DNA of 29,077 nucleotides from a virus: positions 1 through 29,077 of IMG/VR virus record IMGVR_UViG_3300030102_002557; one strand, 5' to 3'. The notes under the pieces were generated by a model, which was not told the DNA's origin, searched no databases, and saw nothing but the letters and a program-made list of their open reading frames with translations. Positions 23,785 through 28,087 of the stretch are shown one piece after another. Each line of letters opens with the position of its first letter. Position 1 is the first letter of the stretch. The position numbers and the translations under genes are program-made.

Positions 23785-23908
23785 ATTGTAATCTCAACGC
23801 TCTGAGAGGTATACATATATATAATACATACCCCCATACGTCTATCGGCGTATTATTGCCAGTCAATAAAAATTATGCAATAGCCAATTATATATTATTG
23901 ACAAGTCA

Positions 23909-23940: not shown

Positions 23941-23952
23941 GAGAGAGAGAAA
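23941..23952. repeat. GA-repeat tract between two divergent promoters
   Basis: A run of GAGAGAGAGAAA lies in the 23 bases that separate the -35 boxes of the minus promoter (23932-23937) and the first plus promoter (23961-23966). Similar tracts occur at four other promoters in this window (24173-24183, 24579-24589, 27853-27868 and, on the other strand, 11787-11800). The recurrence suggests a regulatory site rather than random simple sequence. Confidence 0.6.
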
Positions 23953-24163: not shown

Positions 24164-24192
24164 TTGACAAGTGAGAGAGAGAGTGATATACT
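24164..24192 (+). promoter_or_regulatory. Strong plus-strand promoter with GA-repeat spacer
   Basis: TTGACA (24164-24169), 17 bases, TATACT (24187-24192), a near-consensus promoter. The spacer contains the GA tract 24173-24183. A 12-base inverted repeat CTTAATCTTAAG (24191-24202) covers the end of the -10 box and the likely start of transcription, so it is a good operator candidate. It would drive the small gene at 24261 and possibly the genes beyond. Confidence 0.75.
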
Positions 24193-24571: not shown

Positions 24572-24600
24572 TTGACTTGAGAGAGAGAGTGTGGTAGTAT
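24572..24600 (+). promoter_or_regulatory. Plus-strand promoter with GA-repeat spacer before the early operon
   Basis: TTGACT (24572-24577), 17 bases, TAGTAT (24595-24600). The spacer holds the GA tract 24579-24589 in the same position as in the promoter at 24164, which supports it as a related element. A perfect TATAAT lies five bases further (24600-24605) but at a 22-base distance. Transcription would run through 24606-24856, which has no large gene; it holds a structured RNA and a possible 14-codon leader frame. Confidence 0.6.
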
Positions 24601-24713
24601 ATAATTAAATAGTTAGATAAGCCTACTAACAATAAATAAACAGGCACTATATAAAGTGATTGGTCAATAGCAATTGCAGACATAAACTACAAGATAGGAT
24701 ATGTTTTTCAGAA

Positions 24714-24758
24714 ATGAATATTGATCAATTACAGAGAGTGAGATCGGTTGCATCATAG
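24714..24758 (+). CDS. Possible 14-codon leader peptide
   Basis: A short frame encodes MNIDQLQRVRSVAS and ends in TAG at 24756-24758. It has no strong ribosome site. It is listed because its second half is exactly the 5' arm of the long stem at 24734-24828, so a ribosome reading it would open that stem. This is the geometry of translation-linked leader control. The coincidence may be chance. Confidence 0.25.
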   Translation: MNIDQLQRVRSVAS

Positions 24759-24828
24759 GGAACGGAAAGGTTCTAGAACAATAGTCATGCCTCGATACAA
24801 TCGATGCTCTGCAGTCGGTCACACTCTC
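24734..24828 (+). ncRNA. Structured leader RNA with long imperfect stem
   Basis: Bases 24734-24752 pair with 24810-24828: GAGAGTG with CACTCTC, one A-A mismatch, then GATCGGTTGCA with TGCAGTCGGTC including three G-U pairs, 18 pairs in all. Within the loop, TCGAT-ACA-ATCGA (24792-24804) forms a perfect hairpin and GAAC (24760-24763) can pair with GTTC (24770-24773). GCATC (24750-24754) can alternatively pair with GATGC (24803-24807). No U-run follows, so it is not an intrinsic terminator. It ends 28 bases before the first gene of the early operon. It may be an RNase III-type processing site, a cis-regulatory leader or a small RNA. It does not fit a tRNA. Confidence 0.55.
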
Positions 24829-24856
24829 ACACATAACAACAATGAAAGGATAAGTT

Positions 24857-25255
24857 ATGAACATAAAAGAAAAAGCTAAGATCATACAAGAAACGTATAG
24901 CGATCTATACTTTCTTAGAGGATTACATATCAAGATCAATCTTGATAGCCTAACTGATCTTACATGGAGAAATGAGAAAAGTTGGAGAGGTTGGTTATCT
25001 AATTCTGGTAGGAAATACGGCAAGATATGGACTCTAAATTTTGCTAGTAAGTATTGGGCAGTCAAGCAGTTAGCAAGTGCAGTAACAACACGCACACCAA
25101 GTCTAAAAGATATACACGTCTTGAGAGATGATTATGTTATGGCACACCAAACAGCAACAGAATTTGGTAAAGCCAAACTAAAAAGAAGAATGAAACACTT
25201 AGATAAAATATTGCAGATAGAGTTTACAGACTTTCTGCCAGAAAGAGAGGATTAA
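24857..25255 (+). CDS. Early hypothetical protein, first of the small-gene operon
   Basis: A 132-aa protein with no recognised family. It starts MNIKEKAKIIQETYSDLYFL, and has a tryptophan-rich stretch (TWRNEKSWRGWLSNSGRKYG, about 46-65) and a basic helical C-terminal part (FGKAKLKRRMKHLDKILQ). Overall it is basic, unlike most genes after it. A ribosome site (AAAGGA) is seven bases ahead of the ATG, and the structured RNA lies just upstream. The next gene starts one base after its stop. DNA or RNA contact is possible from charge only. Confidence 0.7.
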   Translation: MNIKEKAKIIQETYSDLYFLRGLHIKINLDSLTDLTWRNEKSWRGWLSNSGRKYGKIWTLNFASKYWAVKQLASAVTTRTPSLKDIHVLRDDYVMAHQTATEFGKAKLKRRMKHLDKILQIEFTDFLPERED

Positions 25256-27824: not shown

Positions 27825-27852
27825 TTGACAGATAATTAGAAATATGTATAAT
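27825..27852 (+). promoter_or_regulatory. Perfect-hexamer sigma70 promoter within the early operon
   Basis: TTGACA (27825-27830), 16 bases, TATAAT (27847-27852). The -35 begins one base after the previous gene's stop codon. GA repeats (27853-27868) follow straight after the -10, over the likely start of transcription. It would supply the gene at 27896 and onward, independent of the upstream promoters. Confidence 0.8.
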
Positions 27853-27868
27853 GAGAGAGTGAGAGAGA
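27853..27868 (+). repeat. GA-repeat tract at transcription start
   Basis: GAGAGAGTGAGAGAGA occupies the initiation region directly downstream of the -10 box. It is the longest of the GA tracts in the window and differs in placement: others lie in promoter spacers or upstream. Confidence 0.6.
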
Positions 27869-27895
27869 TTAACTAGCCTAAGGAAAGGAGGTTAT

Positions 27896-28087
27896 ATGAG
27901 AGTTGATTTTACTGAGATGGCTATCATCACAGGTCAGAAAGAATTAAATGATCTGATGGCTGAACAAAAAAGACAACGCAGTTGCAATCACTCCTATCAA
28001 ATGTCAATACATGACTTACAGATATTTGTCTGTACCAAGTGTGATGACATGGTAGAAGTTGATGCACATAAAAACGATAACAGATAG
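27896..28087 (+). CDS. 63-aa zinc-binding-like early protein
   Basis: MRVDFTEMAIITGQKELNDL forms a helical start. A metal-site pattern then follows: C30, H32, C46 and C49 (SCNHSYQMSIHDLQIFVCTK, then CDDM). A C-x-H...C-x-x-C ribbon of this type is frequent in short phage proteins. It is preceded by a near-perfect ribosome site, AAAGGAGG with a four-base spacer, and sits first behind the promoter at 27825, so strong expression is expected. Function is unknown; nucleic-acid or polymerase contact is a guess. Confidence 0.72.
   Translation: MRVDFTEMAIITGQKELNDLMAEQKRQRSCNHSYQMSIHDLQIFVCTKCDDMVEVDAHKNDNR

Follow-up and report, generated by a model that had tools for sequence, protein, structure and literature searches.

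A structured leader with a constant stem and an exchangeable tip precedes an exchangeable early gene in an uncultured phage family

The window analyzed here, a stretch of 29,077 nucleotides of viral DNA, has its structural genes transcribed leftwards and its small early genes transcribed rightwards. It has no close annotated relatives, and no terminase of a deposited phage exceeds 30% identity to its large terminase. The best explanation is that the window comes from a tailed phage and that the leader described below belongs to an early transcription unit (Table 1). The promoter at 24577-24605 recurs exactly in seven related contigs and has an alternative reading as TTGACT-17-TAGTAT at 24572-24600. 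A family search with the protein encoded directly behind the leader returned no match. The initial annotation had placed the structured element before the first early gene, but a conserved gene with a promoter of its own lies upstream, so that the stem, termed H2 here, stands in a leader and, given read-through transcription, also between two early units. A perfect TTGACA-16-TATAAT promoter elsewhere in the window (27825-27900) has directly behind it GAGAGAGTGAGAGAGATT and a gene whose ribosome site is strong, an arrangement that is present in L139 and L140 too.

Table 1. The leader and its neighborhood, in window coordinates.
Feature	Positions	Strand	Remarks
Promoter of the upstream gene, TTGACA-17-TATACT	24164-24192		Own promoter of the 24261-24569 gene
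Early gene, 102 aa	24261-24569	+	59-64% protein identity in three relatives (tblastn)
Sigma70-type promoter, TTGAGA-17-TATAAT, with GA box TGAGAGAGAGAGTG	24577-24605	+	Recurs exactly in seven related contigs
H0, small hairpin GUUAG/CUAAC near the predicted 5' end	24612-24630	+	Double changes
H1, second stem, GUGAUUGGUCAAUA with UAUUGAUCAAUUAC	24656-24732	+	z -5.6; missed in the initial annotation
14-codon frame	24714-24758	+	Not conserved; first 19 bases inside H1
H2, the reported element	24734-24828	+	18-bp stem (7 bp, A.A, 11 bp) with exchangeable tip
A/C-rich spacer with ribosome site AAAGGAT	24829-24856	+	ACACAT invariant directly 3' of the stem
Exchangeable early gene, 132 aa, unknown family	24857-25255	+	Directly behind the leader

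The pairing of 24734-24752 with 24810-24828 that the initial annotation had described was found again, with 18 base pairs, one A.A mismatch and three G-U pairs, and direct reading likewise recovered the inner hairpin at 24792-24804 (TCGAT/ATCGA), the alternative pairing of 24750-24754 with 24803-24807 (GCATC/GATGC) and the lack of a U-run 3' of the stem, all of which it had listed. Folding of 24714-24856 gave -34.7 kcal/mol (z -2.28), and H2 folded alone gave -33.2 kcal/mol (z -3.78), a stability equalled in 1 of 500 shuffles; the whole leader (24612-24880) reached a z of -6.1, and none of 200 shuffles was as stable. When the 29-kb window was scanned for stems of 19 levels with at most one mismatch, at least eight G-C pairs and a loop of up to 120, H2 was the single match, and the same scan on 60 dinucleotide-shuffled windows returned no match. 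A two-arm scan over the fetched loci found one copy of H2 per genome, and the basal pairs of H2 have a probability of 0.99-1.0 in the leader folds of every version.

Relatives were gathered by terminase, capsid and DNA-pattern searches. Six distinct versions of H2 were obtained, one in the window and the others in related uncultured phage contigs (L002, L004, L005, L008 and L009), together with a truncated copy in L053/L173, and in all six H2 lies between the same promoter, including its TGAGAGAGAGAGTG box, and an early gene. Among the 41 viral-contig stretches with the 15-mer of the 3' arm and the 52 with that of the 5' arm, both arms occur only in the close family. The pattern GTCACACTCTCACACA led to three extra contigs, all chance matches, and annotated phages searched with the region gave two chance matches only. 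In the species-genome collection the terminase search found no relative, and the exact pattern found one contig, without the second arm. Early regions were also read in relatives found through the capsid protein, and all but the two already known, the more distant ones included, lack H2. An apparent copy in G013 and G015, GAGAGTGAGAT, was rejected as its second arm is missing and it looks coding.

Other sequences were seen in the early regions of the relatives. About 250 highly conserved bases without an obvious gene (AACCGCACAGTAACGGAGTAGGTGAACCAGGTCACC...GGGGTGGCCTATATC) lie near the small terminase genes in L141, L142, L143, L147, L148 and L156; they are possibly a structured RNA or a packaging site, they had no Rfam match in L141, L143 and L156, and the window seems to retain only their outer part, near 23795-23855. 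The palindrome GTGTACAC and AGTGTACA occur 10-19 times per 10-11 kb in L155 and L160, from the early regions of G021 and G029, and are likely a regulator or replication site of that lineage. In L142, L143 and L159 (G004, G005 and G027) clustered GGACATCnnTGTCC-like palindromes share one intergenic stretch with a 17-bp stem that has a 94-base loop.

Across the six versions of H2, no variation is seen in the seven outer pairs, in the A.A mismatch or in the 3' arm outside its three inner positions, and the variable columns of the 5' arm are 12, 14 and 16. Columns 12 (C-G/U-G) and 14 (A-U/G-U) are paired in every version, column 16 is unpaired in two, and in the three innermost pairs both partners change; 16-18 pairs are kept throughout. 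With the two arms joined via an artificial 4-base loop, 97.2% of cells were paired and 7 cells carried double changes, either value being reached in none of 500 shuffles, in a comparison where 12 of the 18 pairs never vary and the six related sequences represent few independent events. Slid pairings of the arms scored far lower. Arms mutating independently in relatives had been named in the initial annotation as grounds for abandoning the structure; this check was run on the six versions, and the structure withstood it. In all six versions the arms pair more strongly on the + than on the - strand, by 5.0-8.3 kcal/mol, because G-U pairs turn into A-C on the opposite strand, and this asymmetry is better explained by selection on the rightward RNA than by a DNA dyad. 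The conserved place behind the promoter, the keeping of pairs with double changes and the strand asymmetry thus back the original description of a long structured leader RNA, and we consider it very probable that the leader is selected and functions at the RNA level.

The surroundings of the stem are exchanged between versions. Its tips are of three unrelated kinds (one in the window and L004, one in L002, and one in L005, L008 and L009). The window, L009 and the L002 group each have a sequence of their own 5' of the stem, and the proteins of the six genes that follow the leader show no similarity to one another. Five of the six versions keep the stem and the start of the spacer amid a variable 5' flank, tip and downstream gene. 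The window and L004 are 96% identical over 24733-24867, including 105 identical bases (24748-24852), and they show two differences in the 5' arm, both of them pairing-preserving transitions. This shared stretch sits between unrelated 5' flanks and unrelated genes, which indicates that the stem and ribosome-site spacer behave as a cassette, and the 105 bases are, judging from the sequence comparison, a putative mobile cassette. A small mobile element with terminal inverted repeats was considered and set aside on account of the one fixed position, with no target duplication seen. In L002 and L004 an in-frame ATG (MKGYVM...) right after the stem would extend the first gene; in the window the upstream frame of the MKGYVM type is shut by TAA after three codons.

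Further structure is present in the leader on both sides of H2. Four of the seven pairs of H0 show double changes over five different sequences, with the arms set in filler flanks, and in this hairpin L002 and L008 are a single complementary swap apart. H0 would be complete in the RNA, for which the L002 group requires the upstream promoter reading. H1 ends one base 5' of H2. In L009, a 14-pair stem unrelated to H1 in sequence starts at the same leader position, although the upstream leader of L009 is not unusually stable overall (z -0.6), which limits the support for H1, and H1 is missing in the L002 group. At the other end of the leader, a weak hairpin (24832-24859, CAUAAC/GUUAUG, -3.2 kcal/mol), with the same letters in L002 and L004, encloses the ribosome site in its loop, and its 3' arm takes in the start codon.

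The strongest rival to a function of H2 in the RNA is a DNA-binding site, because the arms hold the core of the promoter GA box. The arms would then be inverted copies of a motif (core GAGAGTG) recognized by the same regulator as that box, or else homology patches for cassette recombination. Such a DNA element would suit the presence of just two copies of GAGAGTGTG in the window, one within the promoter box and the other within the 3' arm, the recurrence of the GA box in several early promoters of the family, and the coincidence of the module borders with the arms. However, the pairing runs well past the box and uses G-U pairs, neither of which a DNA dyad explains, and one strand pairs better in all versions. 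Neither arm contains the full box TGAGAGAGAGAGTG, and the GGGAGTG of the truncated L053 copy spoils the motif while leaving G-U pairing possible. Recombination patches, for their part, account for the mosaic but not for the stem. On balance we judge a DNA element unlikely. The box TGAGAGAGAGAGTG itself is found at 23941-23952, 24171-24186 and 24577-24594 of the window and at the same places in L139, L140 and L167-L172. It occupies the spacer of a number of strong early promoters and also lies between the divergent promoters, with an orientation that is constant across the family; it is probably the operator of a putative regulator.

Among the readings at the RNA level, the leader-peptide or ligand-sensing switch raised in the initial annotation appears highly improbable. 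The 14-codon frame is present in the window on direct reading and shares bases with the 5' arm, and the sequence allows an alternative pairing of 5 bp, as attenuation or a riboswitch would have it. The frame is missing in all other versions, starts inside H1, has no ribosome site at normal spacing and is probably not translated, and the alternative pairing lies inside the closed stem, with H2 at a probability of ~1 in the ensemble. A ligand sensor is made unlikely by the conserved part being the basal helix and by the unrelated genes behind it; conservation is lowest in the tip, the expected place of a sensing core, and neither a conserved core nor a terminator is seen. Rfam, at gathering score, returned no riboswitch, leader or ribozyme for the window and relatives, with a chance hit at E 2.8 only. 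Candidates rejected along the way were an intrinsic terminator (no U-run after H2, and absent from the terminator scan list), a leader-peptide attenuator (no terminator or ribosome-site-blocking alternative fold), a tRNA or tmRNA, and a known ribozyme or riboswitch (no Rfam match). A cis-acting antitermination or antipausing RNA like put of HK022, in which the nascent leader would bind RNA polymerase and bring about read-through of the early region, is suggested by the structured RNA with adjacent stems soon after the early promoter, but the tip is variable, the second stem is missing in the L002 group and there is no strong intrinsic terminator on the + strand in the ~7 kb downstream in L140, so we find this reading quite improbable. 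Release of the leader as a separate small regulatory RNA as well, with the tip setting its target, would draw on the stable fold and the exchangeable tips; we give it a lower probability again, as the leader is without a terminator of its own and is always joined directly to the ribosome site and gene.

We favor, at about even confidence, H2 as a stem of the early mRNA leader that serves in processing of the RNase III type, in protection of the 5' end or in insulation. The combination of a constrained helix and a free A/C-rich spacer with its ribosome site, together with an exchangeable tip and gene, fits processing, protection or insulation, and among the functions proposed in the initial annotation an RNase III-type processing site is the best fit, one of shape and position. 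RNase III substrates offer no sequence signature to look for here. The host-type promoter at 24577-24605 would start a transcript that crosses the leader and carries, in order, H0, then the second stem (in this phage and L009), H2, the A/C-rich spacer with the ribosome site and the exchangeable gene. As a double-stranded site of the RNase III type, H2 would be either cleaved or protecting, and it would set a defined, stable mRNA 5' end beside the ribosome site. It would also shield translation of the swapped-in gene from upstream sequence, including read-through RNA of the preceding early gene. Against this reading, the weak hairpin at the start codon would in this phage lower translation and not raise it.

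The leader is therefore an uncatalogued structured leader of a recognizable general kind, in an uncultured phage family, with its tip and gene exchanged in the manner of a cassette. That it represents a new class of cis-acting phage leader, in which a constant stem with exchangeable tips moves as a cassette before unrelated accessory genes and acts directly on the RNA polymerase or the ribosomes of the host, in the manner of put or of an insulator, instead of serving simply as a cleavage site, seems to us rather improbable. The locus offers a testable example of an early-gene slot that takes unrelated genes, with expression predicted to stay constant, behind a shared promoter, stem and first part of the ribosome-site spacer. 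Should this be confirmed, the leader would be a natural genetic insulator and a marker of swapped-in accessory genes in viral metagenomes.

Comparable elements are known from several systems. The leader of lambda N has an RNase III processing site near the ribosome site. Five sites in the early RNA of T7 are cleaved by RNase III (PMC4858673), and the enzyme also cuts lambda and T3 RNAs (PMC5371410). H2 resembles the sites of T7 early mRNA and the lambda N leader as a long imperfect stem in an early phage mRNA, just 5' of a ribosome site (PMC4858673, PMC5371410), with the host polymerase predicted to transcribe it from an early promoter. The double-stranded stem of ~20 bp that marks RNase III sites in a transcript is present in all six versions of H2. 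Unlike T7 with its five early sites, H2 is single copy per genome, and unlike both T7 and lambda N its tip is exchangeable and the genes behind it are unrelated; cleavage of H2 is a prediction.

Promoter early stem-loops (PeSL) of T4-type phages were reportedly described by Arbiol in 2010 and Comeau in 2014. T4-type phages carry many such modules, and their stem-loop is terminator-like. As cited in two sources, PeSL are an early promoter and stem-loop tied to accessory-gene exchange (PMC4503421, PMC3950731), and an association of this type is seen here, where one kind of promoter and stem precedes six unrelated genes. Unlike PeSL, H2 lies after the promoter in the leader and has no terminator tail, and its single copy, its position and the lack of a U-run led us to reject membership of that class.

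The put RNAs are ~70 nt long, consist of two stem-loops and lie 3' of early promoters (PMC9378689). The leader is like HK022 put RNA in being a structured nascent RNA with adjacent stems soon after an early promoter (PMC9378689). The two adjacent stems of this phage and L009 together span 173 nt, against ~70 nt in put; the leader is larger, and it also differs in its exchangeable tip, in a second stem that is not always present and in having no strong intrinsic terminators near. Bacterial mRNAs of the ompA type carry stabilizing hairpins at the 5' end. The leader shares with these mRNAs a hairpin close to the predicted 5' end (H0) and structure ahead of a ribosome site that is itself unstructured, and unlike in the ompA type the conserved part here is a large internal stem.
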